From: Oscillospiraceae bacterium
GTDB taxonomy: Bacteria; Bacillota; Clostridia; Oscillospirales; Ruminococcaceae
NCBI GenBank assembly: GCA_009778065.1
Contig: WRKM01000012.1
Span: 1-64,000, forward strand
Length of the DNA stretch: 64,000 bases
Direction: 5' to 3'
The notes below the pieces were generated by a model that did not search any database, was not told where the DNA came from, and was given only the letters and a program-made list of their open reading frames with translations. The translations under genes and the position numbers were made by a program. Position 1 is the first letter of the stretch; the number at the start of each line of letters is the position of its first letter. Shown piece by piece: positions 3,376 through 42,538 of the stretch.

Positions 3376-3404
3376 TTGACAAAGTTAAAAATTGACGATA
3401 TAAT
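3376..3404 (+). promoter_or_regulatory. Consensus sigma-A promoter of lipoprotein gene 3
   Basis: TTGACA 3376-3381, TATAAT 3399-3404, 17-bp spacer. Confidence 0.85.
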
Positions 3405-3441
3405 TAAATCATAACATTTAAAGAAAGGCTTGATTTTAATT

Positions 3442-4104: not shown

Positions 4105-4145
4105 TAATAAAAATGAACAGAAATATTTTCAAATTGTTTCGGCGA

Positions 4146-4151
4146 TATAAT
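4146..4151 (+). promoter_or_regulatory. Truncated promoter cassette (-10 only) before lipoprotein gene 4
   Basis: TATAAT at 4146-4151 and everything 3' of it match the other array promoters, but the sequence 17 bp upstream (4123-4128, ATATTT) is not a -35 box. The conserved cassette is cut a few bases before the -10 box. The gene may depend on read-through from the gene at 3442. Confidence 0.5.
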
Positions 4152-4188
4152 AAAATCATAACATTTAAAGAAAGGCTTGATTTTAATT

Positions 4189-5127: not shown

Positions 5128-5149
5128 AAGTCTAAACGCAAATCAATAC

Positions 5150-5174
5150 CCGGTCGAGAAACATCTCAGACCGG
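5150..5174 (+). terminator. Possible weak terminator after lipoprotein gene 4
   Basis: CCGGTC 5150-5155 pairs with GACCGG 5169-5174, extended inside by GAG/CTC, followed only by a mixed A/T tail. The rest of the 5128-5459 gap holds no gene: it carries this hairpin, the intergenic repeat and the next promoter. Confidence 0.35.
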
Positions 5175-5292
5175 ATATTAATTTTACTTGTGTTAATCGA
5201 ATTGTAGCTGTAATCCGCGTTTTTTTATCCAAGAACCTTTACCGTCTTTCATTATTCTTTCGGCAAAAATATTAGACATAAACTTTACCTTT

Positions 5293-5393
5293 CATAATGT
5301 AAATTATAGTATACATTATATTTCCTTTCATTTTGAATTTTAGACATATTGTACTGTTTGATATTTTTAGATTAAAATTTTATTTTTTACTCC
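5293..5393 (+). repeat. Lipoprotein-array intergenic repeat, copy d
   Basis: The first palindrome is complete: ATAATGTA (5294-5301) and TACATTAT (5312-5319). The linker follows, then a degraded second palindrome (TAGACAT 5341-5347, ATTGTA, CTGTTTG 5354-5360) and the A/T run into the promoter. Confidence 0.75.
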
Positions 5394-5422
5394 TTGACAA
5401 AGTTAAAAATTGGCGATATAAT
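5394..5422 (+). promoter_or_regulatory. Consensus sigma-A promoter of lipoprotein gene 5
   Basis: TTGACA 5394-5399, TATAAT 5417-5422, 17-bp spacer. Confidence 0.85.
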
Positions 5423-5459
5423 TAAATCATAACATTTAAAGAAAGGCTTGATTTTAACT

Positions 5460-6125
5460 ATGAAAAATATATTTTGTAAGGGTTTATGCTTGATTATTGC
5501 GGGGGTTATGCTTGCGGGGTGTGAGGGGGATATTCCGATACAGAGTGCAGTTGAAAATGGAGCGTCGGAAATTATCGAAACTTCGGCGAATATCGAATTT
5601 GAGTATATAAACGAAGAATCAATGGAAAAAGTAGAGGGGAAAAAGGAAGCAGATACTACACAAACGACCACTGAAGATTTGTATGAAAATAAAACACAAA
5701 TTAAAGATATAGCGAATAACTTATTATTAAACGGTTTTGAAAAAGCCCACGTTATAACTGAAAATCGTATAATTGCTCGTATGACTCATGATTATGAAGG
5801 AGATGATAATGAAAGATGGATGCATACAGAAACTTGGATTTTTGATGGCGAGGGGAATGTTGTTTCAGATGGAAAATGGGTTGACATTAGATTTGGGCGT
5901 CATGACGAAGGACGCGAAACTATAGGTATAGGTATAATTTATCGCCCTGATGGTGAAGAAGGTATCGGAGAATTTTTGATAAATCAGGACGGCGAGAAAA
6001 TCTCTCCTATACGTTATGATAATATAACTATGCATTGGCTTTATAATACATTTGTAGTCACAATTGATGGCGAAAGTTATGCAGTCGATGGCAATGGTAA
6101 TCGAGTTGATATAGAATTTGATTAA
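5460..6125 (+). CDS. Lipoprotein with WG-repeat-like region (array member 5)
   Basis: ATG 5460 with conserved RBS; signal peptide MKNIFCKGLCLIIAGVMLAG followed by the lipobox Cys. The mature N-terminus DIPIQSAVENGASEIIETS matches array members 1 and 3. Residues about 110-220 align by eye with member 1: WIFDGEGNVVSDGKW, GIIYRPDGEEG, FLINQDGEKISPIRYD, VDGNGNRVD, again WG-repeat-like hairpins. It is shorter than member 1, ending where that protein continues for another 160 residues, so it is either an ancestral short form or a truncated duplicate. Last gene of the array, closed by a strong bidirectional terminator. Function unknown; surface lipoprotein well supported. Confidence 0.8.
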   Translation: MKNIFCKGLCLIIAGVMLAGCEGDIPIQSAVENGASEIIETSANIEFEYINEESMEKVEGKKEADTTQTTTEDLYENKTQIKDIANNLLLNGFEKAHVITENRIIARMTHDYEGDDNERWMHTETWIFDGEGNVVSDGKWVDIRFGRHDEGRETIGIGIIYRPDGEEGIGEFLINQDGEKISPIRYDNITMHWLYNTFVVTIDGESYAVDGNGNRVDIEFD

Positions 6126-6134
6126 GCTAATTGG

Positions 6135-6172
6135 AAAAGATACCGAAAATAATAAAACTTTCGGTATCTTTT
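6135..6172. terminator. Bidirectional terminator between lipoprotein array and tail module
   Basis: Perfect 14-bp stem AAAAGATACCGAAA (6135-6148) / TTTCGGTATCTTTT (6159-6172), 10-base loop. T-runs at either end serve both the plus-strand lipoprotein gene and the converging minus-strand hydrolase gene. Confidence 0.85.
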
Positions 6173-6188
6173 TCACCGATGTTACACA

Positions 6189-7031
6189 TTAATCATTTTC
6201 GTGTAGTTCGCAAGGACACCACGGTTCGGTATCTCCTGTGAATTCAATATATGGAAAGAACCTTTGCGGGTTTATAGTGTTTGCGGGTGTTTCATGTGTT
6301 CCCCCATCATTAATCATTGCTAAATGGAGATGGTGTCCGCTATCACCTATAGAAAGACCTGTGTTACTGACATGACCAATCTGTGTACCCGGAACAACTT
6401 TTGAAATTCCTTCAGTAAAGTAATTATTGGGGTTATCTCGCATATGTGCAAATAAAACACGGATGTTTTTTCCGGTTATTGGGTCAATATTATTAGTTTC
6501 AATCACAACAGAGTTCCCCAAACCGTTTCCCTTGTCTGTTTCTGCCCTTATTTTAACCACTTTCCCGGAAGCCGGGCTTATAATTTTTAAATCTTTCATG
6601 GGTATGGGGTTATTTGCTATGTCAATTGCTCGGTGGTATGGTAATTCTCCACGGTCACGATCATATCCTGATGAAATATTTCTTGTATTTAACACATCAT
6701 CGAAAACCCAATTCCAATGAAAGTCATATGGTCCATGCGGTTCATGAAATACGCCGGGGTTACTGTCATCGTTAAGATATGCAGGTGGGATTCTTATAAC
6801 ACAGCCCGCCCATGCTTTTTTATTTGCTTCCGGTATTGCAAATATAACTGTTGTCCCCGATTTACGTGCTTTAACTGTTCCGTTTTTATCTACTGTTGCA
6901 ATTAGAGGATTACGGCTACTCCAAATTAATTTTTTATTTGGTGCATTTGCGGGTGTTACTTCCGCATCAATTTGAATCGTACCACCTATATTCAATATTG
7001 TGAATACAGGTAATTGTATGTTTACGCTCAT
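6189..7031 (-). CDS. M23-family cell-wall peptidase with N-terminal bacterial Ig-like domain
   Basis: Residues about 8-85 look like a BIG2 Ig-like domain (IQIDAEVTPANAPNKKLIW, IATVDKNGTVKARKSGTTVI). Residues about 130-260 form a LytM/M23 zinc metallopeptidase: the metal ligands are in YHRAIDIAN (His-x3-Asp) and HHLHLAM (HxH), with GNSVVIETN and VPGTQIGHVSNTG as the flanking conserved strands. M23 enzymes cut peptide cross-links in peptidoglycan. There is no signal peptide, which fits a virion- or tail-associated lysin rather than a secreted autolysin. It is the last gene of the minus-strand tail module, so a tail-tip hydrolase or endolysin is the best reading. RBS AAAGGA precedes the ATG. Confidence 0.8.
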   Translation of the reverse strand: MSVNIQLPVFTILNIGGTIQIDAEVTPANAPNKKLIWSSRNPLIATVDKNGTVKARKSGTTVIFAIPEANKKAWAGCVIRIPPAYLNDDSNPGVFHEPHGPYDFHWNWVFDDVLNTRNISSGYDRDRGELPYHRAIDIANNPIPMKDLKIISPASGKVVKIRAETDKGNGLGNSVVIETNNIDPITGKNIRVLFAHMRDNPNNYFTEGISKVVPGTQIGHVSNTGLSIGDSGHHLHLAMINDGGTHETPANTINPQRFFPYIEFTGDTEPWCPCELHEND

Positions 7032-7041
7032 TTTATTCCTT

Positions 7042-7112
7042 TATAATGTAAATTATAGTATACATTATATTTCCTTTCATTTTGATTTTCAGACAGATTT
7101 TACTGTCTGATG
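7042..7112 (+). repeat. Intergenic repeat, copy e, outside the lipoprotein array
   Basis: Both palindromes are present and perfect here: TATAATGTA (7042-7050) / TACATTATA (7061-7069) and CAGACAG (7090-7096) / CTGTCTG (7103-7109), with the same pyrimidine-rich linker as in the lipoprotein array. No array-type promoter or signal peptide follows; the copy sits between two minus-strand phage-like genes. Confidence 0.75.
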
Positions 7113-7190
7113 TTTTTTACTTTTTTTATTGCTTGTCTTGGAAAGTTTGAAAACAATCATAGGCAACACCCCTTTCAATTTTTTTGTTTT

Positions 7191-28886: not shown

Positions 28887-30002
28887 TTATTTCAACGGTA
28901 AAAATGCTTGATTGCTTATCTTTTTTTTGTGTATAACGGCAATCACCCCCACCGCAACAAGCGGAATCCCGAACCCCAAAATTAAACTTACCCAAAGCCC
29001 GTATTTCTCTGACAGTGAGGTTATATTATAAGTGTTTTTTCCGAAAAACAAAGATATAACATACACGCCGAGGAGTAACGGGCTTCTCAGAATTTCGGGT
29101 CTTTTTATTTCTGTCAAAAGCCCTGTAATCTTTAAAAAAATGTGCGTAAGCATCACTATCACGGCAAGGTCTGTCACAACCCACAATAATAAAAATACCG
29201 ACTCAAGCCGCTCAAGCATACCCTGTGCACCCACGATTTTAACCGACATAATAAACGGCTGTTCCATTACGGCGGTCAAATCTTTGCCGAAAATGCCTGT
29301 CGTGACGGTGAAGATTATGAGATTAGCCGCAAGAAGCACCCCCGCACTGTAAAGCCCGTGTTTTTTAAAAGCCCGCCCTCCGTCCGCCGCGCCTAAAAAC
29401 AAGAGAGGCGTAATATACGCAAAAACGCCCAATGCGGGGAGTGTGCCGCGTACAATATGATGAAAGTCATATTGCGTAACGGGCAAAAGATTTTCGGGTC
29501 GGATTTTAGGAATCTGGAGTACAAGAATAACCGCAAGCGCAAACAACACCACATAAAAGAACAACTCACTCAAAATCGCGAAGTTCCGAAGTCTGCCGCT
29601 GAGGATTATAAAAACCAACGCCAACAGGGTAATTGTAAAAAAACTATCATGAACGCCGGGCATAATGAGTTCTTTAAATTTATCGGCAAATCCCCGTAAA
29701 TAAAACCCCGCAAGCATAAAAACCCACACCGCATATATTACAACGATAACTTTAGCCAATATTCTGCCGAACGCTGATTTGTAAAGCGCGTATAAATCGA
29801 CACTGCCCTGCCTTTTAAAACAAGAACCGAGCAGAATAATGAACCCGTAAAAAGCCGCACAGGCTACGAAAATCGAAACCCAACCCGCTCTGCCGCCGAG
29901 CCTCGCCCCGTATACGGAACTCATTCGGATTAAAGGAGAAAAGGCGGCAAGCATAAATAGTATATAGGCTTGCTTTGTTGTGATTTTTTCTGTATTAACC
30001 AT
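28887..30002 (-). CDS. gerKB: GerKB-type spore germinant receptor B subunit
   Basis: 371 residues, ten predicted membrane helices of the APC/LeuT-like GerB family (Spore_permease). The family N-terminus is visible as EKITTKQAYILFMLAAFSPLIRM, with SVDLYALYKSAFGRILAKVIVVIYAVWV and the later NLIIFTVTTGIFGKDL. The B subunit binds the germinant in the spore inner membrane and triggers germination. It is the last gene of the operon KA-KC-small-KB. The gene start overlaps the small 2-TM gene by eight bases. Confidence 0.9.
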   Translation of the reverse strand: MVNTEKITTKQAYILFMLAAFSPLIRMSSVYGARLGGRAGWVSIFVACAAFYGFIILLGSCFKRQGSVDLYALYKSAFGRILAKVIVVIYAVWVFMLAGFYLRGFADKFKELIMPGVHDSFFTITLLALVFIILSGRLRNFAILSELFFYVVLFALAVILVLQIPKIRPENLLPVTQYDFHHIVRGTLPALGVFAYITPLLFLGAADGGRAFKKHGLYSAGVLLAANLIIFTVTTGIFGKDLTAVMEQPFIMSVKIVGAQGMLERLESVFLLLWVVTDLAVIVMLTHIFLKITGLLTEIKRPEILRSPLLLGVYVISLFFGKNTYNITSLSEKYGLWVSLILGFGIPLVAVGVIAVIHKKKISNQAFLPLK

Positions 30003-30138
30003 AAAAATAAAACCCCGCTCCCGTTATAACGAGCGTCAACATCGCAAAATATATGAAATTTCCGTGCCTTTTTTCTTGTCTTAACTGCGGTATATCGCTT
30101 ATAATCAAAATAGCGGCGACTACGACAAATACGGACAT
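29995..30138 (-). CDS. Small two-helix membrane protein in ger operon (D-subunit-like)
   Basis: I start it at ATG 30138, preceded by GAGGTG; a longer frame to 30192 lacks an RBS and would overlap gerKC. 47 residues: helix one MSVFVVVAAILIISDI, a charged turn PQLRQEKRHGNF, helix two IYFAMLTLVITGAGFYFYG. Two-helix small 'D' proteins are known in some Bacillus gerA-type operons, where they modulate receptor activity; the size, topology and operon place fit. No sequence proof. It overlaps gerKB and lies two bases after gerKC. Confidence 0.7.
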   Translation of the reverse strand: MSVFVVVAAILIISDIPQLRQEKRHGNFIYFAMLTLVITGAGFYFYG

Positions 30139-30140
30139 TT

Positions 30141-31214
30141 TCACCTCGTTATATTTATTGTTACAGGTGTCTGTAAATAAATCTCTTCCCAATGAGCTTT
30201 AATCTGCTCCCATTTAAGGGGATGCCGCATACGGAGCATTTCTCCCAACCCCAAAAAATCACACCCGAAGTTTCTTGAGGCATCTATTGTTTTTTGAAGC
30301 TCGTTTAAAATTACCCTGTTTTGTTCTCTTTCTAACGCCGTAAAATCCTCTCCGACAGTTTTTGAAGCCGACTTTGCGGATATTTTAACGTCTATAACTA
30401 TTTCTTTCAGGTTATTTCCGTCTAAGTTGAAGTTAATTTTACTTTCAGTATTTTCTAACCTTACAGCGGCGTTTAGCTCGTTAAGCTCTACAATCGAATA
30501 TACCGACTTATTTTTTATTATGTTATAACCACGCGCCGCGCCGTTCTCAATAAAACCCGCAAGCACGCCGTCTTTGATAATCGCATAACCGCCGGGTACA
30601 ACGATTTTCTCATCAGCGTGTTCTTTTATGACCAATGTAGGGATAACGAAAGCACCGTTTCCCGCCCACTCGCTTAGAAGCTCATAAAATTTAAGCTCGG
30701 ATGAAAACGCTCCGATTCCCGAATACTCGCCGTAATTACGCAGTATATCAAGCGTTTTAGTTTCGGTAAGGATTAAAGCGGCTTCAGAAGCCTCACCCTT
30801 TACGATAAACACAGAAGCGGTCAGCCGCAGGTTGTTATTCTCTTTTAAAAAATCTATATACTCCGCAAGACTTTCTGCCGCCGCCGCACCTATTAGAAAA
30901 TAATCGGCGGTACTCGTCGCCATTTCACGAGGGAATCGCTTTTTTAAGGCTTCGAGTGCGGCGGCGGGTGACGACGCTTCCGCGCTGTCGGTATGTTTTT
31001 GGTTAACGCTGTCTCCGCCTTCGTCTGCGGCTTCTATTTTCTCGTAGATTATAGATACTTTTGATGCTTGTGCAGATTTATTTGCTCTGTCAAGCCCGAT
31101 TAAAAAAATCGGTTCTGCGAGCGTTATTTCGGTCATGTGCGGAAGCGAGTGTCCGCCGCCCATTATACCGACGACCAAAAATATTATCAGGACAGTGATT
31201 ACGGAGCGTTTCAT
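30141..31214 (-). CDS. gerKC: GerKC-type germinant receptor C subunit, lipobox Cys missing
   Basis: 357 residues of the GerAC family. The hydrophobic N-terminus (SVITVLIIFLVVGIMGGGHS) ends without a cysteine, whereas the C subunits are normally lipoproteins; here the lipobox reads IMGGGHS. The rest follows the family: EPIFLIGLDRA after the signal, SEWAGNGAFVIPTL in the middle, and the diagnostic end NFGCDFLGLGEMLRMRHPLKWEQIKAHWEEIYLQTPVTINITR. It anchors in the spore inner membrane next to A and B. Start codon ATG overlaps the gerKA stop by four bases. Confidence 0.9.
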   Translation of the reverse strand: MKRSVITVLIIFLVVGIMGGGHSLPHMTEITLAEPIFLIGLDRANKSAQASKVSIIYEKIEAADEGGDSVNQKHTDSAEASSPAAALEALKKRFPREMATSTADYFLIGAAAAESLAEYIDFLKENNNLRLTASVFIVKGEASEAALILTETKTLDILRNYGEYSGIGAFSSELKFYELLSEWAGNGAFVIPTLVIKEHADEKIVVPGGYAIIKDGVLAGFIENGAARGYNIIKNKSVYSIVELNELNAAVRLENTESKINFNLDGNNLKEIVIDVKISAKSASKTVGEDFTALEREQNRVILNELQKTIDASRNFGCDFLGLGEMLRMRHPLKWEQIKAHWEEIYLQTPVTINITR

Positions 31215-32581
31215 TTTATGAGTACTCCTTTACCGCGCCTTTTGAACGAAGGCAGACGTAAAAGCCCATCCTTTACGGCGTGGTCGCCATCTTTGTATGC
31301 AATCATATACGGCTCACCGAGCGAGGTTGTTTGACACAGATAATAAAGCAAAAATATGAGTCCGAGCGACAAGCCGTATAACCCCGCAAAGCTCGCCGAT
31401 ATTAAAAGAAGAATCCGCATTATTCGCAGTGTGTTAACGAGGTCACTATTTGAAACCACAAAGCCGCAAATACCCGTAACCGCCACAACCACCACAATAG
31501 CAGGGGAAATCAATTTCGCCGAAACTGCCGCCTCCCCGACAACAAGCCCTCCGATAATCGAGACAGCCTGACCTATAGACCTCGGCAGACGTATACCCGC
31601 CTCAATCAAAATTTCAAAAGCCACAAGCAATGAAAAAACCTCAAGAAACGTGGTAAAAGAAACCGCCTGTTTACTTTTTATAATCGCGAGCATTAAGTTA
31701 GTTGGGAGCATCTCATGATGAAAGGTGGTTATGCCGACATAAAACGCAGGAATTACAAGCGATAAAAACGCACCCGCATAACGGAGCAGGCGTACATAAG
31801 AGCCATGAGCGTAGTTTTGGGAATAATCCTCACCCGCCTGAAACAGCATATTAAACACGGCAGGTACAATAAAAGCAATCGGGTATCCATCTACAAGTAT
31901 CCCGATTTTACCTTCGGCGATGTTAGCGCAGAGCTTATCGGGGCGTTCGGTGTACATAACCTGCGGAAAAAGCGACCAACGACTGTCTTTGAGACATTCC
32001 TCAATACTGCATGTCGATTTTATAGCCCTTTCATTTATTTTTTCAAGCCGCGATAAAACCTCTTTTACTTTTTCGTCCTCTGTAACACCATCGAGATAAA
32101 TTACAGCGGCGTTTGTCTGTACAGCTTTACCGAGTTTTACGCTGTCTATCCTCAAAGCGTGGGTGTTTAAACGGCGTCTGATTAATGCGGTGTTAGTTCG
32201 TATGGCTTCTATAAAAGAATCCTTCGGTCCTTTTATGACGTTTTCGCTACCCGGCTCTGTTATGCCGCGCTTGTCAAAGCCGCGTGCATCATAAATAATT
32301 GCTTTATTCTCGCTGTCGATAATCAGTGCGGCGTTTCCCGAAAGAATATCGGTTGCTATTTCGAGCGGCTCTGTCTTTTGGCTCTGCGCCGCATGATACG
32401 CCTCGCCGCCGAGCGACAGGGGCTTTAAAATATCTTCGTTTACCGAACGCAAATTAACAAGCCCGTCAACAGCGACAAGAAGCGCGGGCTTGCTCTTACT
32501 GCCGCCTAAGAATAAATCAAAATATATAATATCATCGGGCTGTTTTAATATTTCTTTTATTTGAGCAGATAAAGATTGCAT
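31211..32581 (-). CDS. gerKA: GerKA-type germinant receptor A subunit
   Basis: 456 residues of the GerA family. Start ATG 32581 (MQSLSAQIKEILKQPDDIIYFDL) has the RBS AAAGGAGA; a frame extension to 32635 runs into the terminator hairpin of the preceding DNA. N-terminal soluble domains (about 1-230, including LINSARD-type segments), then the conserved membrane part: DGYPIAFIVPAVF, PAFYVGITTFHHEMLPTNLM, SIGQAVSIIGGLVVGEAAVSAKLISP. It forms the germinant receptor with KB and KC. First gene of the operon; the stop is overlapped by gerKC. Confidence 0.92.
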   Translation of the reverse strand: MQSLSAQIKEILKQPDDIIYFDLFLGGSKSKPALLVAVDGLVNLRSVNEDILKPLSLGGEAYHAAQSQKTEPLEIATDILSGNAALIIDSENKAIIYDARGFDKRGITEPGSENVIKGPKDSFIEAIRTNTALIRRRLNTHALRIDSVKLGKAVQTNAAVIYLDGVTEDEKVKEVLSRLEKINERAIKSTCSIEECLKDSRWSLFPQVMYTERPDKLCANIAEGKIGILVDGYPIAFIVPAVFNMLFQAGEDYSQNYAHGSYVRLLRYAGAFLSLVIPAFYVGITTFHHEMLPTNLMLAIIKSKQAVSFTTFLEVFSLLVAFEILIEAGIRLPRSIGQAVSIIGGLVVGEAAVSAKLISPAIVVVVAVTGICGFVVSNSDLVNTLRIMRILLLISASFAGLYGLSLGLIFLLYYLCQTTSLGEPYMIAYKDGDHAVKDGLLRLPSFKRRGKGVLIK

Positions 32582-32607
32582 ATGGTTTATTGTCTCCTTT
32601 ACGCAAA

Positions 32608-32671
32608 CAAAAAACAGGGTATGATTTAATTTCATGCCCTGTTATTATTTGCAGAACTGCTCTTTTTATTC
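32608..32671. repeat. 64-bp direct repeat A, with terminator hairpin
   Basis: 63 of 64 bases are identical to 38919-38982 (the only difference is G/T at position 44). The repeat holds a 12-bp stem with one wobble: AACAGGGTATGA (32613-32624), 7-base loop, TCATGCCCTGTT (32632-32643), followed on the minus strand by T6. It lies between gerKA and the giant surface gene. Confidence 0.9.
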
Positions 32672-32756
32672 TGCCTTAACCCTTTAAATCTAACGGCAAA
32701 GAGCATGAAATAATAGCGAAGATTAATTATATATTATTTAAAAACATATACCCAAG

Positions 32757-32773
32757 AGGGACTATTAGTCCCT
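32757..32773. promoter_or_regulatory. Short hairpin overlapping the surface-protein promoter
   Basis: AGGGACT (32757-32763), ATT, AGTCCCT (32767-32773), followed by T-rich sequence. It could be a terminator against upstream read-through or an operator overlapping the -35 region. Confidence 0.5.
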
Positions 32774-32785
32774 TTATTTTTGTGC

Positions 32786-32791
32786 TATAAT
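32786..32791 (+). promoter_or_regulatory. Extended -10 promoter of the giant surface protein
   Basis: TATAAT (32786-32791) with TGC directly in front (extended -10); no good -35 box 17 bp upstream. RBS GGGGG about 6 bases before the ATG at 32836. Confidence 0.55.
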
Positions 32792-32835
32792 GGTTTATAT
32801 CTAAATTTATTTTGAAATTTTAGGGGGATTTTATT

Positions 32836-35800
32836 ATGACAATTCATAAACCAAAACTGAAATTTACAGCACTTGTCCTCGCTCTTTCTATACTTTTCTG
32901 CGCTACGCTCGGGTATGGGGCGTGGTTTAGTACTTATGCGAATGATTATGACGACCCTAATGCGGTCGAGGTTACGTCGGACGCCGCGTTACGTACCGAA
33001 CTGACCGACCAACTTAAGTACTGGAGAAAAACAACAGTAATACCTTCCGGTGCAGATGTATGGATTTCAGGCACATCGATTGCGTTTCAAAACGCACACG
33101 CTACTTCCGGGGCGGAAGTGCTGCGCGTATACGGCAAGCTTAACCTTGAGCAAAGTTTAATCCTTTATCCGTCCGTAAAACTTGTAGTTGAAGACGGCGG
33201 GGAAGTGATTGTTTTTAATGATAGTGAAATTCGGGTTCTACCGCGAGCATCCGCGACTGTTGACCATAATATTATTATTAAAAGCGGCGGGACTTTAACC
33301 CTCGGCGGAAGCGTAGGCACCGCACGAAACGGAAACCTTACCAACGGCTCTATAGGCATTACCGGGGCTAATTCACCCTCATCTATTTTGATTGAAGCAG
33401 GCGGTACGCTAAACATAGGCAGAACAGACTTCGATGCGACCGGAACTTTGAATAACGGCGGCGGCGACGGTCAAAACAGATATGGCGGCGTTATTCATAA
33501 CTACGGTACAATCAATGTAGAACGAGGTGGAATTAATAACGATAACTCAGAAGACACTTCTAAACCGGCTGAAATAACAAACTACGCAACGGGCAAAATA
33601 AACGTATCAGCCGGTACCTCAATAAGCGGAAACCCGATTGCCGGAGATTTTAAACCGCCGACAATCAGCCTATCTGTGCCGGGTATAGTTGCGAACACAG
33701 CCTATTCCCACCAATTAGAAACCGCCGCGACAGGGAGCGTTACGTGGAGCGGGTTTGAGCGTTATTATAACAGCCAAACGCTTAACTTTTCCCCAAGCGA
33801 CGGAGTATTATCGGGAATCGGAAGTTCAACTACGGGGTCATCGACTTTTGCTGTAACGGCGACAGGCGACTACGGTTCTCACACGCAGTTTTTTGCTATC
33901 CCTGTTGCTTCTATAGAGTTTCATGAGCAGGAGGGATATTTGTACGAAGGTACGGCGGGGACTGTGAATGTTCCTGTTACACATAGTTTTACCTCTACTG
34001 CTGTTGAATTAAAAGGCTTTGATACAACCACGCAAAAGGAAATCGACCCGCCCGCGGGAATATCGCTGTCCGGGGGATTACCCGCATCGGGCGGTCAAAC
34101 GGTAAATATGCCAATTGCGGCTTCAACAGCGGCAAAACAAGGGACATATCCGTTACGTTTAAAAATTACGCAAACACAGGGAGGTATACCTTATATTTAT
34201 TACGCGCCGCTTGAAGTCACCGTAGGTAAACCGCGATATATTACAGTGAGTAGGGTAGGCAACGATTACTCCACGCAAGCCGGCACAGCTAAAAATTTTG
34301 TTTATAGCGTAGATATGCTCGGGATTCCGGGAAAGACTTATACCGCCGCTGATTTGAATTTAAGCTTTACTCCCGCCTTACCGGCGGACGTTACGGCGAG
34401 TTTAGCAGTACCCGCCGATGACGGCTCTTCCAAAACTTCTACGCTTACATTAAACATCACAAGCGCGATAACGACAGGCGATTATCACGGAACGATTACA
34501 ATAGATGGCGTAAAATCAAACAGCTTCGGCTTTACCGTGGGTAAAGCTTCTACCACGAATACAGGCGGCAAGAACTTTACAGTGACTTACGGCACTGGCG
34601 GCGTAAATTCTATGGATATTAATCTTGCTGAACAGATTATTAGTGGCGGTCTTTCTCAATATCTTTTTGAATTTGACTCCGGTGCGGGTGCGCGGTCTTA
34701 TACCATAGAAGATAACAGTACGGGAGCGGGTACGATTAATAATGCTACCAATATTCTCACCGTAACTAAGTGCGGGACTTTTGTAATCAGTGTCGAAACG
34801 GCGGCAACCGCCTCTAACGGCGCGGCAGATAAGGTTACATCAACACTTACGGTAAATCCTAAGAGAATAACAAACGTGCCGGGCATTTCGGAAGAGTCGA
34901 CCAGAGTATATGACGGCGAAACAAAAGTAACCTTGACAATTAATAGTGCTATAGTTGGTTGGTCTGACAAGGTGAACACCGCTGATGATGTTGCGTATCA
35001 TATCGGTACGCTTGCAGGGGAAATGCAAACCCCAAACGTAGGACTTAACCCGATTACAATTACCGGAGCATTGGGATTAGTGGGCGATGATGCGTGGCGT
35101 TATGTTTTAACACCGTCGGCAGGTTTCCCTCCCCTCTCCCTTAATATCACCCGTAAACCTATAACTTTTAACGGAACGGTTACGGTTGAAAAGGAATATG
35201 ACGGGACTAACGCATTTACTAACGATAAAATTACAATAAACCAACCGCGTAATTTTACGGGCGTTATTGCCGGCGATATTGTAGAATTAAGCGCGGCGGG
35301 CGTAACATTTACGTCTTCAAGCCTGACCGCGGGAGGTCCTTATACAACCTCGCGAAGCGGCACTTACTCGCTTACGGGTCCTCAAGCGGGGAATTACTCC
35401 ATAGATAGTACTACTATCTCTGCTCCGGCTACAATATTCCAGACAGCCGCAAATAATACACCCAAAAGACCAATTGACGGTGTCAATCCCAACCCGTATG
35501 AAGTAACTTACGGTTCCGGTGGCGTAGCGTCTATGGATTTTGACCTTGAAGAATATAAAGAGGAGCTTTTCACTTTTGGAGCCGGTGCGGGTGCGGGTAC
35601 GCGTACTTATACCATAGAAGGCGGTACGGGCGCGGGTACAATTTCGGGAAGTACTCTGAAAGTAACCCGAACGGGAACTTTTCATATAGGCGTTGTGACG
35701 GCGGCAAGTACTAACCACTGGCCATCGCAAAAGGTTGTTTCAGAATTTAAAGTAAACCCTAAGTTGGTCACAGACTTGCCGACTATATCGGCAGAATCTA

Positions 35801-38800
35801 AGCCCTATGACGGAAATACGAATATAGAATTAACACTATCAAAAGACATAGACAAGGTAAATAGCGCGGATGATATTCAGTTCGTAAACAACTTTACAGG
35901 AACGGCAGATAGTAAAGATGTGGGAAATGATATAGACGTTGATGTAACAGGAAACTTGTTGATATTTGGGGCTGATACATGGAAGTATACACTATCGACT
36001 CAACCAACAACCACAGTTTTAAAAGCTGATATAACCCCAAAAGAAATAACTTTTGTCGGAACGATTACGGCTGAAAAGGTGTTTAATAATACAGTTGCGT
36101 TTACAAACGTACAAATAGAAATCGAAGACCCCGGTGACTTTGCTGTAGGCGAGGTTATCAGCGGCGATGATGTGGTTTTAAGCAAAACGGGCGTGACGTT
36201 AACCGCTACGGGTTCAGCAGTGGGAACGTATTCCAATATTGCTACTCCACCTACTCTCACGGTAAACGGTAGTTTCTCGCTTACAGGCACTCATGCAGGG
36301 AATTACAGCTTATTAAATGCGAGCAGTATTGCCGTTTCGGCTGAAATAATTCGCGATTCTGCCGTAAATACGGGTGATAAAGAATATACAGTAACTTACG
36401 GTACGGACATAAGTTCTATGACGATTAATCTTGAAGATATAAGAAATGAACTTTTCGTCTTCGGCGAGGGTGCAGATGCGGGTGCGAGGAGTTATAGCAT
36501 AGAAGACGGCGGGACGGGTACGGGTACAATTTCGGGCAATAATCTCAATGTAACCGCGTGCGGGACTTTTGAAATAGGCGTCATAACGGGACCAACCACG
36601 AACTTCGGAACAGCTGATAAGGTTATATCTACTCTTACGGTAAGCCCTATGATAATCACCGCCGCAGATTTACCCGTATTATCAGCAACCAACAAAACTT
36701 ATGACGGTAATGGTGCTATAACCATAACAATATCACCGACAACCGTACCTAATAGCGCAAAGGCAAAAGCCGCAGACACTGTTTCTTTCGTCCACGATTA
36801 TGAGGGGACAGCAGATAGAAATGCGGGAGATGATAAAGCTGTCGCCATAACAGGAAGTTTATCATTAGGTGGTACTGATGCGTGGATGTATGAGTTAGAT
36901 GAGCAACCTGACACTTCAGATGTAACTGTGAACATAGAACCCAAAGAGATAAGCTTTGCCGGGTTAGTTACAGCCGAAAAGGAATATGACGGAACTGACA
37001 CGTTTACCTCCGCGCAGATTACGGTTGTTACTAATTCGTTCGGCTTGGGCGATATTATAGGAAGCGATGTTGTAAGGTTAAGCGCGGCGAACGTGACATT
37101 AATCTCTACAGGTACAGATGTGGGAAGTTATTCAACCTCGCAAAGCGGAGATTACACCCTTTCGGGAACTCACGCACTCAATTACAGCTTGCTGTATGCA
37201 GACAACATTTCCGCTTCGGCTGAAATAACAAAAAGAGGTATCGGCGGCACGGTGGGCATTTCAGTTACCCACGCGGTTCCGGGTTCCGGTATAATAATCG
37301 CAGACGACACTTTGAAAGTAGATACTACAGCACTAACCCCCGCAAATCTTGTCCCGACACTTGACTATCAATGGTTCAGGAACGGCGTAGAGATTCCGGG
37401 AGAGACAACTGACAGTTATATCGTTGATGCAACGGATGACCCGAAGGGTACAAAGATTCACGTAGAAGTTACAGCCACGGGGAACTTCAAAGGCGAGCTT
37501 ACAAGCGGAGATGTTGAAATAGGAAAAATACCCCTTGTAAACGATATTTCAATAACTTTTCCCGATAATGAAGACCTCGGAGTAGGTACAGAGCTTACAG
37601 TGGGCGGTGATGTGATTAACGGTCTGACCGATGGCAACCACTACGAGATTAAATGGTATCGTGACGATGTAGAACTAAGCGGTGAAACGGGTACAACGTA
37701 TATTATTACCGAAGATGACCTCGGAACAACCATTTCGGTAGAAGTCACAGGCATAGGAGACTATTCAGGTACAGTCGGGGAAAATATAGATATAATTGTA
37801 CCCTTTGAAATTCATTATCACAACAATTTCGGCGATAATGAAACTCACACAGACGATGTTTTAGGCGGAGATGAGTATTACATAATGGACAGGGGCGAGT
37901 CGTTTTCCACTCGAAACGGATATAGACTTACCCGCTGGACAACCGAAAAAGACGGCACGGGAACATCCTATGCCCCCGACGAAAATATTAGCCGAATAAT
38001 AGAAAATATAACGCTGTACGCACAGTGGGCGCAGGTTATATCGGAGGATACTAAAAATAAAATTATTATTGGTGACGGTCTGACGGATGCGGTTCATGTA
38101 TTTGAAAATAAATACATTCTCGACTTAGAGCAAGTCCTGATTGACGGTCATGAGTTAGACTTAATGCCGGCAGTGGATGCAATGCTTCTCAGTGGTTATC
38201 CGGGATATGGCAATGATGTCGGTGATGCTGTAGAGGGTAGCGTAATTATTACGCTTTATAAAGAGTTTCTCACTTTCCTGCCGAACGGCTCCTACACACT
38301 TTCGGTTAAATTCTTATACGAAGAGCCGATTGACATTGAATTTTTGATTGAACATTATGGCTCTGTACCCGATAATAACGAGCCGGACAACGGCGGCGGT
38401 GGCGGCGGTAGCGGCAGCGGTGGCGGCGGCAGTGGCAGTGGCGGCGGCGGCAGTGGTGGCGGCGGCGGGAATAGTCCGAGAGTACCCGAAAGAGTCCCCT
38501 TAAATAGGAACTCGGACGATAATTCTCCGAACGATGATAATAATAATGATACAGACGATGATTCAGATGAAAATGATTTAACAGATGATGATAATGACGA
38601 AAATAATGAAAATGAAAACAATCAGTCCGATGACGACTCAGATGGCAACAATTCCGGTGCCGATGATAATGACAACAGTGGAAACACTCATTTCGGTGAT
38701 GATTCCGGCGGTAATTACACTGCATCTGATGACTCGGATAATAACGCAGTCGCCACAGATTCCGACAGCAAGTCAAATCCGGCGACCGGCGTAAGAGAAG

Positions 38801-38895
38801 TTGTTTGGTTTACGTCAATAGCCGCGCTGTTTGCTGTTTGGAGCAAACCAAAAATAAGAGAGTACATGACAAAAGGCTTGAAACATAAGAGTTAG
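32836..38895 (+). CDS. Giant sortase-anchored surface protein with YDG-type repeats
   Basis: 2019 residues. Signal peptide 1-36; residues about 45-275 a Gly/Asn-rich beta-solenoid-like region; about 280-370 a putative Ig/cadherin-like domain; three diverged units of about 300 residues (574-872, 872-1175, 1176-1465), each with a TYG segment and paired YDG motifs (KEYDGTNAF, KPYDGNTNI, KTYDGNGAI, KEYDGTDTF); two Ig-like domains with YQWFRNG and IKWYRDD; an InlB-type repeat (about 1657-1734) ending ITLYAQW; a Gly/Ser linker (about 1852-1880), a long Asp/Asn-rich stretch, then NPATG (1981-1985), a hydrophobic segment and a Lys-rich tail. That end fits a sortase signal of NPxTG type. Probable adhesin or stalk protein; no sortase gene is in the window. 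Confidence 0.85.
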   Translation: MTIHKPKLKFTALVLALSILFCATLGYGAWFSTYANDYDDPNAVEVTSDAALRTELTDQLKYWRKTTVIPSGADVWISGTSIAFQNAHATSGAEVLRVYGKLNLEQSLILYPSVKLVVEDGGEVIVFNDSEIRVLPRASATVDHNIIIKSGGTLTLGGSVGTARNGNLTNGSIGITGANSPSSILIEAGGTLNIGRTDFDATGTLNNGGGDGQNRYGGVIHNYGTINVERGGINNDNSEDTSKPAEITNYATGKINVSAGTSISGNPIAGDFKPPTISLSVPGIVANTAYSHQLETAATGSVTWSGFERYYNSQTLNFSPSDGVLSGIGSSTTGSSTFAVTATGDYGSHTQFFAIPVASIEFHEQEGYLYEGTAGTVNVPVTHSFTSTAVELKGFDTTTQKEIDPPAGISLSGGLPASGGQTVNMPIAASTAAKQGTYPLRLKITQTQGGIPYIYYAPLEVTVGKPRYITVSRVGNDYSTQAGTAKNFVYSVDMLGIPGKTYTAADLNLSFTPALPADVTASLAVPADDGSSKTSTLTLNITSAITTGDYHGTITIDGVKSNSFGFTVGKASTTNTGGKNFTVTYGTGGVNSMDINLAEQIISGGLSQYLFEFDSGAGARSYTIEDNSTGAGTINNATNILTVTKCGTFVISVETAATASNGAADKVTSTLTVNPKRITNVPGISEESTRVYDGETKVTLTINSAIVGWSDKVNTADDVAYHIGTLAGEMQTPNVGLNPITITGALGLVGDDAWRYVLTPSAGFPPLSLNITRKPITFNGTVTVEKEYDGTNAFTNDKITINQPRNFTGVIAGDIVELSAAGVTFTSSSLTAGGPYTTSRSGTYSLTGPQAGNYSIDSTTISAPATIFQTAANNTPKRPIDGVNPNPYEVTYGSGGVASMDFDLEEYKEELFTFGAGAGAGTRTYTIEGGTGAGTISGSTLKVTRTGTFHIGVVTAASTNHWPSQKVVSEFKVNPKLVTDLPTISAESKPYDGNTNIELTLSKDIDKVNSADDIQFVNNFTGTADSKDVGNDIDVDVTGNLLIFGADTWKYTLSTQPTTTVLKADITPKEITFVGTITAEKVFNNTVAFTNVQIEIEDPGDFAVGEVISGDDVVLSKTGVTLTATGSAVGTYSNIATPPTLTVNGSFSLTGTHAGNYSLLNASSIAVSAEIIRDSAVNTGDKEYTVTYGTDISSMTINLEDIRNELFVFGEGADAGARSYSIEDGGTGTGTISGNNLNVTACGTFEIGVITGPTTNFGTADKVISTLTVSPMIITAADLPVLSATNKTYDGNGAITITISPTTVPNSAKAKAADTVSFVHDYEGTADRNAGDDKAVAITGSLSLGGTDAWMYELDEQPDTSDVTVNIEPKEISFAGLVTAEKEYDGTDTFTSAQITVVTNSFGLGDIIGSDVVRLSAANVTLISTGTDVGSYSTSQSGDYTLSGTHALNYSLLYADNISASAEITKRGIGGTVGISVTHAVPGSGIIIADDTLKVDTTALTPANLVPTLDYQWFRNGVEIPGETTDSYIVDATDDPKGTKIHVEVTATGNFKGELTSGDVEIGKIPLVNDISITFPDNEDLGVGTELTVGGDVINGLTDGNHYEIKWYRDDVELSGETGTTYIITEDDLGTTISVEVTGIGDYSGTVGENIDIIVPFEIHYHNNFGDNETHTDDVLGGDEYYIMDRGESFSTRNGYRLTRWTTEKDGTGTSYAPDENISRIIENITLYAQWAQVISEDTKNKIIIGDGLTDAVHVFENKYILDLEQVLIDGHELDLMPAVDAMLLSGYPGYGNDVGDAVEGSVIITLYKEFLTFLPNGSYTLSVKFLYEEPIDIEFLIEHYGSVPDNNEPDNGGGGGGSGSGGGGSGSGGGGSGGGGGNSPRVPERVPLNRNSDDNSPNDDNNNDTDDDSDENDLTDDDNDENNENENNQSDDDSDGNNSGADDNDNSGNTHFGDDSGGNYTASDDSDNNAVATDSDSKSNPATGVREVVWFTSIAALFAVWSKPKIREYMTKGLKHKS
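34555..37230 (+). repeat. Three tandem 0.9-kb coding repeats (YDG modules)
   Basis: Units at about 34555-35450, 35451-36360 and 36361-37230. Each starts with a VTYG segment, has a SYTIE/TYTIEG turn, an LTVNP-like joint and two YDG-type domains ending with AGNYS/LNYS. Protein identity between units is moderate, so the duplications are old and not prone to slippage. Confidence 0.8.
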
Positions 38896-38918
38896 AGTGC
38901 TTAGAAAAAAATAAAAAT

Positions 38919-38982
38919 CAAAAAACAGGGTATGATTTAATTTCATGCCCTGTTATTATTTTCAGAACTGCTCTTTTTATTC
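38919..38982. repeat. 64-bp direct repeat B, with birA terminator
   Basis: Same 64 bases as repeat A with one mismatch. The birA stop codon lies inside this copy, and the hairpin (38924-38954) followed by T6 on the minus strand is the birA terminator. The two copies are 6311 bp apart and bracket the surface-protein gene. Confidence 0.9.
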
Positions 38983-39705
38983 CTCCCTCACCAACATAAC
39001 CTCCCCCGAAGAAAGTGCGTTTATTCTCCCCTCGCCGTCTTTTACGAGAAGCCTTCCGCTGTCGTCTATGCCCGTCACCGTGCCGAAAAACTTCTCATTA
39101 TTTTGCATATAAGAAATATTAAGCCCCATAAGGCAGGACAAAGCCCTGTATTCGTCCATGAAAGAGGGGCTTAAATCGCGGCATAACCCGTAAAACTCAT
39201 TAATCACCCCTGCCGCGAGTTCTTCCCGCATACAGGTCGGTTTTTCATTACGCTCAAATACAGCCGCCGCGTTTAAATCGGGAAAATCTGAAAAATCTGT
39301 CGTGAAATTTATACCGATTCCGACGATTACATAGTCTTGTGCGGATTCGGCTAAAATTCCGCAGATTTTTCTCCCGCCGAGAAGTATGTCGTTTACCCAC
39401 TTTATTTGCGCTTTTTTTCCTGTAAGCCTCTCTACGGCTCGGCAGACAGCAACGGCGGCAGCGGGGGTTATCAGTGTTGTGTTTTGAACATCGCGCAGAA
39501 TAACGCTCATGTATATACCCGTTTCGGGCGGCGAATAAAATCTACGCTCAAACCTGCCGCGTCCTGCGGTTTGCTTTTCGGCAAAAAAAATGTCATAAGC
39601 GGCGGCGTTTTCTTTCGCCGCGATGTTCGTTGAGCCTGTTTCGTCAAGAGCTAAAATCCGCAGATTTTCATTTTTTAACAGGGTTTTTATTATTTTTGTG
39701 TTCAT
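38977..39705 (-). CDS. birA: Biotin--[acetyl-CoA-carboxylase] ligase, without HTH domain
   Basis: Start ATG 39705 (MNTKIIKTLLKNENLRILAL) has the RBS AGAGGAAT; a longer frame to 39837 is not supported. 242 residues: catalytic domain with DETGSTNIAAKE, the biotin-binding loop KQTAGRGRFERRFYSPPETGIYMSVIL (GRGR), LTGKKAQIKWVNDILLGGRKICGILAES and VIVGIGINFT, then the C-terminal SH3-like domain (NEKFFGTVTGIDDSGRLLVKDGEG). It attaches biotin to carboxylase carrier proteins. No N-terminal DNA-binding domain, so it is a monofunctional ligase and not a repressor. Its promoter region is shared with the divergent methyltransferase. Confidence 0.93.
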   Translation of the reverse strand: MNTKIIKTLLKNENLRILALDETGSTNIAAKENAAAYDIFFAEKQTAGRGRFERRFYSPPETGIYMSVILRDVQNTTLITPAAAVAVCRAVERLTGKKAQIKWVNDILLGGRKICGILAESAQDYVIVGIGINFTTDFSDFPDLNAAAVFERNEKPTCMREELAAGVINEFYGLCRDLSPSFMDEYRALSCLMGLNISYMQNNEKFFGTVTGIDDSGRLLVKDGEGRINALSSGEVMLVREE

Positions 39706-39730
39706 AATTCCTCTTTTTTGAAAATAAGAC

Positions 39731-39759
39731 TTGCCTTTTAATGTAAATTGTGGTAAAAT
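39731..39759 (+). promoter_or_regulatory. Promoter of the restriction-modification operon
   Basis: TTGCCT (39731-39736), 17-bp spacer, TAAAAT (39754-39759). An inverted repeat TACAAAC (39762-39768) / GTTTGTA (39787-39793) lies between the -10 box and the RBS and could be an operator. Confidence 0.65.
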
Positions 39760-39796
39760 AATACAAACAAAACTATATATTGAAAGGTTTGTAAAA

Positions 39797-41416
39797 ATGG
39801 AGCAATTGACGCTTGCAAAATCAATATACGCAAACAAGAAAGAGTTATTTACTATTCCTGAAGCATCTGCTTGGGCAACGGAGTATGTCAGACGTGAAAT
39901 AACCGTATCAAATATTTCTTATCTTATTCAATATGGACGGATTCGCAAATTAAATTCTAACAGGGGTGTATGCGTTTCAAGGCTGGATTTAGAGAATTAT
40001 TATAACTCATATGATACCACCCGCGAATCGACCTATAAAACCCAGCTTGGTAACGATATTAACTGGGAACTTTCGTTTTCACGGGTTAAAGAAGCCGAAT
40101 CTACTAAACATGTTCATCGCTTACACCCATACAAAGGAAAATTTATCCCGCAATTAGTCGAATACTTTATTGACTCCCATACAGACGATTTCAAGCGAGA
40201 AGTCTACTTCAAGCAAGGAGATATTATTCTTGACCCGTTTTCGGGTAGCGGTACAACAATGGTACAAGCAAACGAGTGCGGAATGGACAGCATCGGAATA
40301 GACGTGTCCTCATTTAACGCGCTTATTGCTAATTGCAAGGTGGCGCGATATGACCTCGCGGACTTACACGCCGAGTCTAACCGTATATCATACGCACTCC
40401 GCGAATTTACCGCACGTTCTAATATTGCAGAGTTTGAAAACACGTTGCTCGCGGAATTAAATAAATTCAATAATGAATTTTTTCCCGTACCGGGGTATAA
40501 ATACCGCCTAAATCAAGGCGAAGTTAACGAAGATGTTTATGGCGCAGAAAAAGAGCGGTTGTTTTTTATTACATATAATAAACTCATACAAGAATATGGC
40601 ATTAGGCTCTATCAGGAAAAAAACTCTAACTTCCTCGAAAAATGGTTTTTGCAACAGGTTCGCAATGAAATTGAATTTACATTTGAACAAATTGAAAAGG
40701 TGCAAAATCAACAAACAAGAAGTATTTTAAATTTAATCCTTAGCCGTACAATGAGAAGTTGCCGGGCGACAACGCACTCCGACCTTGCAACGCTTATAGA
40801 ACCCGTAACAAGTACTTATTATTGCTCTAAACACGGAAAAATTTGCAAGCCCTTATTTTCAATAGTTAAGTGGTGGGAGAGTTATTGTAAGGACACCATC
40901 CGGCGTCTTGGAGCTTTTAATATTTTAAGAACACCAACAGAACAGTACTGTTTAACAGGCGATAGCCGGAGCATTAATATAATAGAAGAGCTTAAAATGG
41001 TTTCTCCTTGGTTTGCAAAAAAAGTTTCCGGTCAGCGTATTGCGGGTATTTTCTCATCCCCGCCGTATGTGGGTATGATTGACTACCACGAACAACACGC
41101 TTATGCCTATGACTTGTTCAGATTCGAGCGTAGAGACGACTGTGAAATCGGTCCTTTGTTTAGAGGTAAAGGTAAAGAGGCACGGCAAAGTTATATCGAC
41201 GGAATATCTTCGGTTTTGAATAATTGTAAGAAATATCTTGCCGCTGATTATAATATTTTTCTTGTCGCGAACGATAAGCATAATCTTTATCCGATAATAT
41301 CCGAAAAAGCCGGAATGTCTATCGTAAATATGTTTCGTCGTCCTGTACTTAACCGTTCAGAAAAGGACAAAACTGCCTATTCCGAGACTATATTTCATAT
41401 GCGTGAAAGGAATTAA
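39797..41416 (+). CDS. Type II DNA methyltransferase with N-terminal HTH-like segment
   Basis: Start ATG 39797 with RBS GAAAGG. 539 residues. Motif I DPFSGSGTT (about residue 145) binds S-adenosylmethionine; motif IV is SSPPYVGMIDY (about 420), the SPPY form usual for N4-cytosine methylation. The 270 residues between are the likely target-recognition region; motif order I-TRD-IV is the alpha-type. The N-terminal 70 residues (TIPEASAWATEYVRREITVSNISYLIQYGRIRKL) look like a helix-turn-helix of the excisionase/MerR-like kind, possibly for autoregulation. Two bases separate it from the nuclease gene. Substrate sequence not readable from the protein; GGNCC is a guess from the nuclease family. Confidence 0.88.
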   Translation: MEQLTLAKSIYANKKELFTIPEASAWATEYVRREITVSNISYLIQYGRIRKLNSNRGVCVSRLDLENYYNSYDTTRESTYKTQLGNDINWELSFSRVKEAESTKHVHRLHPYKGKFIPQLVEYFIDSHTDDFKREVYFKQGDIILDPFSGSGTTMVQANECGMDSIGIDVSSFNALIANCKVARYDLADLHAESNRISYALREFTARSNIAEFENTLLAELNKFNNEFFPVPGYKYRLNQGEVNEDVYGAEKERLFFITYNKLIQEYGIRLYQEKNSNFLEKWFLQQVRNEIEFTFEQIEKVQNQQTRSILNLILSRTMRSCRATTHSDLATLIEPVTSTYYCSKHGKICKPLFSIVKWWESYCKDTIRRLGAFNILRTPTEQYCLTGDSRSINIIEELKMVSPWFAKKVSGQRIAGIFSSPPYVGMIDYHEQHAYAYDLFRFERRDDCEIGPLFRGKGKEARQSYIDGISSVLNNCKKYLAADYNIFLVANDKHNLYPIISEKAGMSIVNMFRRPVLNRSEKDKTAYSETIFHMRERN

Positions 41417-41418
41417 CT

Positions 41419-42186
41419 ATGACCGACGCATTAAAAAGCCATGTTGAAGACACCATTGCGAAATGTCTGCGCTTTAAATTTCATGACTATACCCCCAAGA
41501 ACAACTATATGCCCTTCCACGTTCGGTTACTTGGACGTGATAGATTAGCATTATATTCATTTATTCACTCCCTAAACACAACATTTGGTTCATCTGTTTT
41601 CGAGCCGGTCGCCGTGTCGCTTGCAAAAGAAAAGTTTACGTTTGCCGACAGCCAACACATTGTTGGTGATGAATTGTTTTCTGATTGCAGCAATGCGATT
41701 GACAATATAATGAACGAGCTTGAAATATCTCGCAGAAGTCCAAACAGGACAGAGGAATTATCATTACTTCGCAACTCATTAACCGGTGAAAAAATCAAGC
41801 GTAAGCCCACGCTTGCCGACCTCTTTTTAATTGACAAGAACGGCGAACATTGGATATTCGATATGAAATCTCCTAAACCGAATATCGGCGAATTTAAAGG
41901 CTTTAAGCGTACTTTATTAACATGGTCAGGTATAGCAATGACAGAAAACCCAAAAGTTAGCGTACATTCTTTAATCGCCATAACCTATAACCCAAACTAC
42001 CCCGAGCCGTATAAGAGTTGGCAAATGCGGGGTATGCTTGAACAAGACGAAGTTCTTGTGGAAAAGGAGTTTTGGGACTTTCTCGGTGGCGATGGTGCGT
42101 ATGAGGAATTGCTTGATTGTTTCGAGCGTGTGGGTGTTTCTATGCGTGGCGAGATTGATGAATACTTTAAGCGATTTAGGGTTTAA
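41419..42186 (+). CDS. Type II restriction endonuclease, TdeIII family
   Basis: 255 residues, strongly reminiscent of the TdeIII/MjaII-type nucleases: NNYMPFHVRLLGRDRLALYSFIHSLNTTFGSSVFEPVA near the start, ADLFLIDKNGEHWIFDMKSPKPN as the PD-(D/E)xK core (Asp in DLFLID, D-x-K in FDMKS), FKRTLLTWSGIA, LIAITYNPNYPEPYKSW, and the end EFWDFLGGDGAYEELLDCFERVG. Family members recognise GGNCC as I recall; the specificity here is inferred. Its RBS (AAAGGA) is in the methyltransferase 3' end, so the two are translationally coupled, methylase first. Confidence 0.88.
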   Translation: MTDALKSHVEDTIAKCLRFKFHDYTPKNNYMPFHVRLLGRDRLALYSFIHSLNTTFGSSVFEPVAVSLAKEKFTFADSQHIVGDELFSDCSNAIDNIMNELEISRRSPNRTEELSLLRNSLTGEKIKRKPTLADLFLIDKNGEHWIFDMKSPKPNIGEFKGFKRTLLTWSGIAMTENPKVSVHSLIAITYNPNYPEPYKSWQMRGMLEQDEVLVEKEFWDFLGGDGAYEELLDCFERVGVSMRGEIDEYFKRFRV

Positions 42187-42229
42187 TATGTGTATTTTTT
42201 CTTTTTTTCCTCTTTTTTGAAAAAAACTA

Positions 42230-42298: not shown

Positions 42299-42538
42299 GT
42301 GCCTAATATTAAATCCGCTAAAAAGAGGGTTTTAGTATCTAAAGCCGCAAATGTGCGTAACAGAGCTAAACGGTCTGAGTTAAAAACGCTCCTCAAAAAA
42401 GCGAACGCAGAAACTGCCGATGGCGCAACGATTATGAGTGCAATCGAAAAAGTAGACCGCGCAGCAACTAAAGGGCTTATTCATAAGAATAAAGCGGCAC
42501 GTATTAAAAGCCGTTTAGCAAAAAAAACCACGGCATAA
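42299..42538 (+). CDS. rpsT: 30S ribosomal protein S20
   Basis: 79 residues, GTG start at 42299 after a GGGAGGG RBS. Sequence MPNIKSAKKRVLVSKAANVRNRAKRSELKTLLKKA and the C-terminal HKNKAARIKSRLAKK are the standard S20 helical-bundle signatures (INAARHKSRLAKK-like). S20 binds the 5' domain of 16S rRNA early in 30S assembly. It faces the hemW-lepA operon, a neighbourhood conserved in Firmicutes, and ends in its own terminator. Confidence 0.97.
   Translation: MPNIKSAKKRVLVSKAANVRNRAKRSELKTLLKKANAETADGATIMSAIEKVDRAATKGLIHKNKAARIKSRLAKKTTA

Follow-up and report, generated by a model that had tools for sequence, protein, structure and literature searches.

A giant surface-protein gene between two copies of the birA-gerKA spacer in an uncultured Oscillospiraceae bacterium: a likely insertion with long target duplication

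A 64,000-nucleotide stretch of DNA from an uncultured gut bacterium of the Oscillospiraceae (assembly GCA_009778065.1, contig WRKM01000012.1, positions 1 to 64,000; hereafter the window) carries a giant surface-protein gene between the biotin--protein ligase gene birA and a gerKA-like spore germination gene, bracketed by two 64-bp direct repeats. Judged from the sequence, we consider it likely that this gene arrived by an insertion that duplicated a long target, the birA-gerKA spacer. The duplication, the cargo, the empty site of a relative and the lack of a recombinase gene and of terminal inverted repeats in the insert are directly seen. The locus comprises the following features:

31211-32581, minus strand: gerKA-like spore germination gene (GerA family, PF03323)
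32608-32671: copy A of the 64-bp direct repeat, on the gerKA side, with a hairpin at 32613-32643
32672-38918: inserted segment of 6247 bp between the copies, with the giant gene as its only long open reading frame (ORF)
32836-38895, plus strand: giant surface-protein gene of 2019 amino acids, a single intact ORF
38919-38982: copy B of the 64-bp direct repeat, on the birA side and also downstream of the giant gene, with a hairpin at 38924-38954
38977-39705, minus strand: birA, biotin--protein ligase

An earlier note on this DNA had described a 64-bp repeat with 63 matching bases at a distance of 6311 bp, and our re-analysis returned the same values, with G at 32651 and T at 38962 as the sole mismatch. 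Similarity outside the 64 bp is weak (10/20 bases on the right, 4/20 on the left). As the note had also stated, copy B carries the end of birA, whose last codon and stop (38977-38982) lie inside it together with the hairpin, and copy A precedes gerKA, whose start codon (32581) lies 31 bases past the end of the copy A hairpin. A gerKA-side neighbourhood for copy A and a birA-side neighbourhood for copy B are what the duplication of one ancestral spacer would be expected to leave. The note had further proposed a search for the repeat elsewhere, since many copies would point to a common terminator. In the whole genome (2,545,972 bases in 43 contigs), BLAST with 77 bases returned 16 places, namely the two copies and 14 others of 14-34 bases with E values of at least 0.3; two copies in the whole genome rule out a common genome-wide terminator or dispersed repeat. 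A search for the 31-base core of the hairpin that tolerated up to 3 mismatches gave two hits in the window and none in 100 shuffles. A phage-borne site was ruled out, the hairpin core not being found in viral contigs in one exact-pattern scan, as was a known RNA element, given that both Rfam matches in 30000-42000 stayed under their gathering scores.

On the plus strand each copy forms a 12-pair hairpin with a 7-base loop that beats 200/200 shuffles. On the minus strand each hairpin loses one pair, and that of copy A still beats 200/200 shuffles. The hairpin with a T-run toward gerKA fits a terminator between birA and gerKA. Just within the insert (32640-32718), part of the right half of the repeat recurs imperfectly and in inverted orientation (GGCAAAGAGCATGAAATAATAGCG). 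Its fold-back with copy A is long and could be a remnant of the joining event or form a leader structure.

The arrangement expected before the insertion is found in a relative. A search with the gerKA protein yielded 30 loci in named genome contigs. Junctions were examined at the seven with at least 69% identity (69-84%), all from Oscillospiraceae metagenome-assembled genomes whose isolate codes we take to be termite-sample codes; the 23 loci at 44% or less were left out. At locus L086, birA ends at 9916, one hairpin follows and gerKA starts at 9998, with 81 bp between the genes, and the upstream order rpsT, hemW, lepA is that of the window. This empty site, whose homology is based on gene order and hairpin position, was seen in 1/7 relatives. 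It is the arrangement that the earlier note had suggested looking for, birA followed directly by gerKA with one repeat, here in another species. Together with the confinement of the repeat to two copies it lends good support to the note's proposal that an insertion duplicated the birA-gerKA junction. Two relatives, L047 and L048, carry other genes at the junction. In three more, L080, L059 (contig of L081) and L061 (contig of L084; judged by eye), gerKA does not have birA next to it upstream; G023 and G020 have their birA matches on other contigs. The seventh, L060 (contig of L083), could not be judged, as its contig stops about 250 bases upstream of gerKA. With one empty, two occupied by other genes, three with other neighbours and one unjudgeable, the junction is a variable site. 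No closer relative was found, gerKA at E values up to 1e-150 being present in the own genome alone among 297 family genomes (own included). The regions around distant birA genes in G022, G014, G005, G029, G002 and G011 served only as a pool for gene-order matching.

A hairpin precedes gerKA in 7/8 genomes, namely the own genome and six of the seven relatives, L061 being the exception. Three of its stem positions vary in step (G-C/A-T, C-G/T-A/T-G and A-T/G-C), and 21/21 cells (7 genomes x 3 positions) hold standard or G-T pairs. The hairpin pattern was picked by eye and also permitted A-C mismatches at these positions, of which 0/21 cells had one. The paired changes support a conserved hairpin, though not as a formal test. 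Given its presence in 7/8 genomes with paired changes, the hairpin appears to be an old element of the junction that was duplicated in this genome. As the two window copies are 63/64 alike while the hairpins of the relatives differ strongly, the duplication would be recent or its copies kept alike. In L061, the relative without the hairpin, the gerKA match (G020:C8:10819-12228) was observed to contain an in-frame TGA.

The protein encoded by the insert contains six YDG stretches (PF18657; whole-protein E 4e-36), placed in repeats of about 300 amino acids, and DNA repeats within the gene are spaced 879-921 nt apart. There is also a List_Bact_rpt match under the cut-off. A hydrophobic N-terminal stretch is read as a signal peptide, and toward its end the protein has linkers rich in Gly/Ser and Asp/Asn and a C-terminus of NPATG, a hydrophobic stretch and a basic tail. 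This is the only xPxTG end in 337 sampled ORFs of at least 150 amino acids, and three sortase matches in the genome exceed the cut-off. The product is therefore most likely a cell-wall-anchored, beads-on-a-string adhesin, its binding and anchoring being predicted from these features. It resembles YDG-domain cell-wall-anchored surface proteins in its domains, its xPxTG-type end and the sortase matches of the genome. It has no full-length relative in 59 relatives (local matches in 8/59) or in 395 other family genomes, 28 of which gave a match at E values up to 0.001, the best with 36% identity over residues 1199-1649. The L086 genome gave no match and the L080 genome one local match (E 6e-4). 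Searches of an open-access library for YDG/MBG and for termite-gut surface proteins produced nothing of use.

No recombinase, transposase or integrase gene was found in the insert, which holds one long ORF with no recombinase domain in it. Its ends carry no terminal inverted repeats beyond A/T words of up to 9 bases, and a transposon was ruled out on this ground. With a GC content of 0.457 and a codon distance of 0.073, against 0.065-0.131 for the 12 longest sampled ORFs (itself included), the giant gene is typical of its genome and gives no sign of recent arrival from a distant taxon; foreign cargo by composition was thus ruled out. Upstream of the gene lies one further element:

32757-32773: 17-bp palindrome AGGGACTATTAGTCCCT, just upstream of TATAAT at 32786-32791 and the only exact match in the genome

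The palindrome is a possible operator. Membership in a regulon was dismissed, as the search found it nowhere else exactly and returned a single match with 3 mismatches, fewer than the reversed-pattern control. A second YDG surface-protein gene, of 1587 amino acids (L110 11456-16219), was observed in the own genome near the end of contig C9. About 140 bp upstream of it is a (GATT)n tract of about 32 units (L110 16357-16484), which stops within 3 bases of the contig end and is a candidate simple-repeat tract for phase variation.

On the other side of birA lies a second candidate insertion (39797-42186 as a whole), between birA and rpsT:

39708-39724: left copy of the 17-bp exact repeat TTCCTCTTTTTTGAAAA, at one edge of the restriction-modification pair
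39797-41416, plus strand: DNA methyltransferase (N6_N4_Mtase)
41419-42186, plus strand: TdeIII-family restriction endonuclease (E 1e-78)
42207-42223: right copy of TTCCTCTTTTTTGAAAA, at the other edge of the pair
42299-42538, plus strand: presumably rpsT (ribosomal protein S20), to judge from its sequence

In L086 and L048, rpsT adjoins birA with no restriction-modification pair between them. The TdeIII endonuclease family was found in 4/59 other genomes, three times over the cut-off. The pair with its 17-bp repeat is suggestive of the same insertion pattern, weakly so when taken alone.

Other genes of this genome are bracketed as well. The repeat survey covered 471,804 of the 2,545,972 bases (18.5%), with copy numbers counted within samples. 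For comparison, the same script was run on the first 400,000 bases of the L086 contig (G449) and on 400,000 bases of G014, a member of the same genus, from one contig; the other 343 kb of the G449 contig served for gene-order matching only. The own sample contained seven two-copy intergenic pairs, two of them nested in another bracket, which leaves five brackets. These are the 64-bp case and the following four:

34-bp repeat around a block of small genes with RhuM
51-bp exact repeat around an Rpn/YhgA-type nuclease gene (own contig C10, 58237-59443)
107-bp repeat around a Schlafen/AlbA_2-type gene, the second copy being a contig end and possibly an assembly overlap
233-bp repeat around two genes without a Pfam match

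Seven more two-copy pairs had one copy in an ORF; a gene of 173 amino acids accounts for two of them (73 and 41 bp) and a single C4 stretch for the other five. Pairs with more than two copies (15 intergenic, 2 mixed) and 10 coding pairs were not counted as brackets, and a 77-bp pair on C9 was dropped, being a dispersed repeat present 5 times in the sample. In the L086 contig sample, the one intergenic two-copy pair (31 bp) bracketed a 378-bp ORF, and there were two mixed pairs, one of 296 bp around several ORFs. In the G014 sample there were three intergenic two-copy pairs, two of which surround an ORF (173 bp; 33 bp), and three mixed pairs (178, 92 and 40 bp). Since brackets also occur in the L086 contig and in G014, they are not confined to this genome. 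The excess of gene-bracketing pairs here (5 vs 1 and 2) is small and we claim no significance for it. Overall, repeats of 17, 34, 51, 64, 107 and 233 bp surround different cargo in the own genome, and empty sites were seen for the 64-bp and 17-bp cases alone; the genes flanking the other bracketed cases had no ordered counterparts in the relatives' DNA that was compared. Two further observations concern repeats: the 173-bp repeat of G014 (6 mismatches) brackets a gene for a fibronectin/ricin-type-lectin protein of 1084 amino acids (L183 11834-15488), and the window contains a small-gene array (893-7118) in which nearly the same sequence precedes several genes (repeats of 42-223 bp, in 4-6 copies).

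The ancestral order would have been lepA-hemW-rpsT-birA, one hairpin and gerKA, as in L086. Insertion would have left a copy of the spacer on each side, with birA retaining its stop and hairpin and gerKA its leader, and the new gene would have gained a terminator-like hairpin through the duplicated spacer. Candidate routes are the fill-in of a widely staggered break, template switching or the crossover of a spacer-carrying circle, and a repair or template-switch route fits the variable repeat lengths. Recombination between the present copies could then remove the giant gene cleanly. The insertion event, the route that it took and excision today, if any, are inferred. In the cited part of a study in Escherichia coli, overexpression of Rpn-type nucleases raised RecA-independent recombination (PMC5350276). 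Such nucleases are a lead on the mechanism because one of their genes is itself bracketed by repeats in this genome.

Several observations weigh against this interpretation. The only empty site, L086, belongs to another species (gerKA 78%, birA about 55%), so the duplication is judged across species. In L047 and L048, birA and gerKA are about 1.7 kb apart, with other genes on the birA side of the hairpin (an AraC/GyrI-type regulator, short possible genes recognised by eye and two proteins lacking a Pfam match); inspection by eye gave no second hairpin at their birA ends. The immediate ancestor therefore need not have been empty. As to the hairpin, the copy B stem has one mismatch in the birA direction, where 24/200 shuffles are as good (z -1.2), and a terminator scan gave both hairpins on the plus strand only. 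Finally, the 17-bp repeat of the neighbouring insertion could be due to chance: at least 17 shared bases occurred in 1/3000 Markov shuffles and in 25 of up to 6000 pairs of random A/T-rich segments of the same contig.

Among other explanations, it is rather unlikely that the locus is an excisable cassette in use, whose copies recombine often (RecA-dependently or by hairpin-aided slippage) to give on and off populations and circles that re-enter by a single crossover, as for the wzy gene of Salmonella Typhimurium. The repeat length of 64 bp is close to the minimal lengths of 23-27 and 44-90 bp given for two RecA pathways in the cited part of the wzy study (PMC12074656). The copies differ at one position alone, and a clean deletion would yield a junction like that of L086. 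However, no single-repeat junction was found in the assembly, and compared with wzy as reported there the insert is longer (6.3 kb against 2.6 kb) and the repeat shorter (64 against 113 bp; PMC12074656). Excision by 64-bp repeats at 6.3 kb would be weaker than that of wzy but is possible. The earlier note's suggestion of a mobile or phase-variable surface cassette is thus conjectural for the present.

A genomic island often restores a gene's 3' end, and direct repeats of about this size remain. The two copies might accordingly be attL and attR sites left by a tyrosine recombinase acting at the 3' end of birA, with the enzyme supplied from elsewhere. In addition, the relative G023 (L059) has ORFs upstream of rpsT and gerKA (L059 1888-6439) that we take from their sequence to be integrase-like and FtsK-like, which suggests that an integrative element used the rpsT/gerKA neighbourhood in another species. 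Yet the giant gene is the insert's sole long ORF, no third copy was found in the genome, and the other bracketing repeats of this genome differ from the 64-bp repeat in length and share no sequence with it by eye, which makes such an island quite improbable. Each copy is also placed where a terminator could act, so that gene conversion might have kept two similar terminators alike, or one might have been copied for use, without any insertion. The identity, however, extends over 20 bp beyond the hairpin and includes the last birA codon, L086 has one copy and no giant gene, and further copies were not found in the genome; we regard this explanation as highly improbable. An artefact of a metagenome assembly of 43 contigs, in which one other surveyed repeat sits at a contig end, has the slightest chance of all: the locus is interior to an 89-kb contig, both flanks follow the relatives' gene order, and the codon use and GC content of the giant gene fit the genome.

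Insertion with long target duplication (Nobusato et al. 2000; Furuta et al. 2010) is, in the cited portions of the literature, linked mainly to restriction-modification genes, first in Helicobacter pylori and with Helicobacter as the worked case (PMC3031569, PMC3154945, PMC1643837, PMC3874152, PMC4978471), and the duplications are there variable in length and of the order of 100 bp (PMC3874152). The locus described here shares with these cases a transposase-free block and a long direct target duplication, which at 64 bp is longer than those of transposons, and a restriction-modification pair with its own short repeat lies next door. The differences from the Helicobacter cases lie in the cargo (a giant surface-protein gene), the target (a birA/gerKA spacer) and the host (an uncultured member of the Oscillospiraceae), and in the comparison of species rather than strains. 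At the wzy locus of Salmonella Typhimurium, 113-bp identical repeats allow the deletion of 2558 bp; the cited text reports the deleted form in about 1/500 cells, a circle and reversion (PMC12074656). Both loci have a surface-structure gene between two others and long direct repeats, one of which is retained by the deleted wzy form. Excision, circle and reversion are demonstrated there, whereas the window locus is known from assembled DNA. The H47 genomic island of E. coli, a 13-kb microcin island with imperfect repeats whose mobility was demonstrated by PCR and whose excision proceeds without RecA according to the cited excerpt (PMC5426353), likewise has flanking direct repeats and no recombinase of its own; for H47, excision is demonstrated.

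In conclusion, the likely event belongs to a known though seldom noticed kind, insertion with long target duplication, and what it adds is its giant-adhesin cargo and its host, for which we draw no claim of priority from a search confined to an open-access library. A giant-adhesin cargo, together with the empty site of a relative and the restriction-modification insertion across birA, would broaden this kind of insertion. It also makes testable the idea that such duplications give the cell a ready way out of costly surface genes, for instance when phages attack. We put forward only tentatively, as a generalisation that is at present unlikely, that these gut Firmicutes regularly gain intergenic genes or modules (adhesin, restriction-modification, Schlafen-type, Rpn-type nuclease, RhuM) without a transposase and with long, variable target duplications, which later allow clean loss and regain by crossover. 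Their pan-genome would then be a pool of excisable cassettes, surface genes included, and it is this possible generality of bracketed gene gain that makes the finding interesting.

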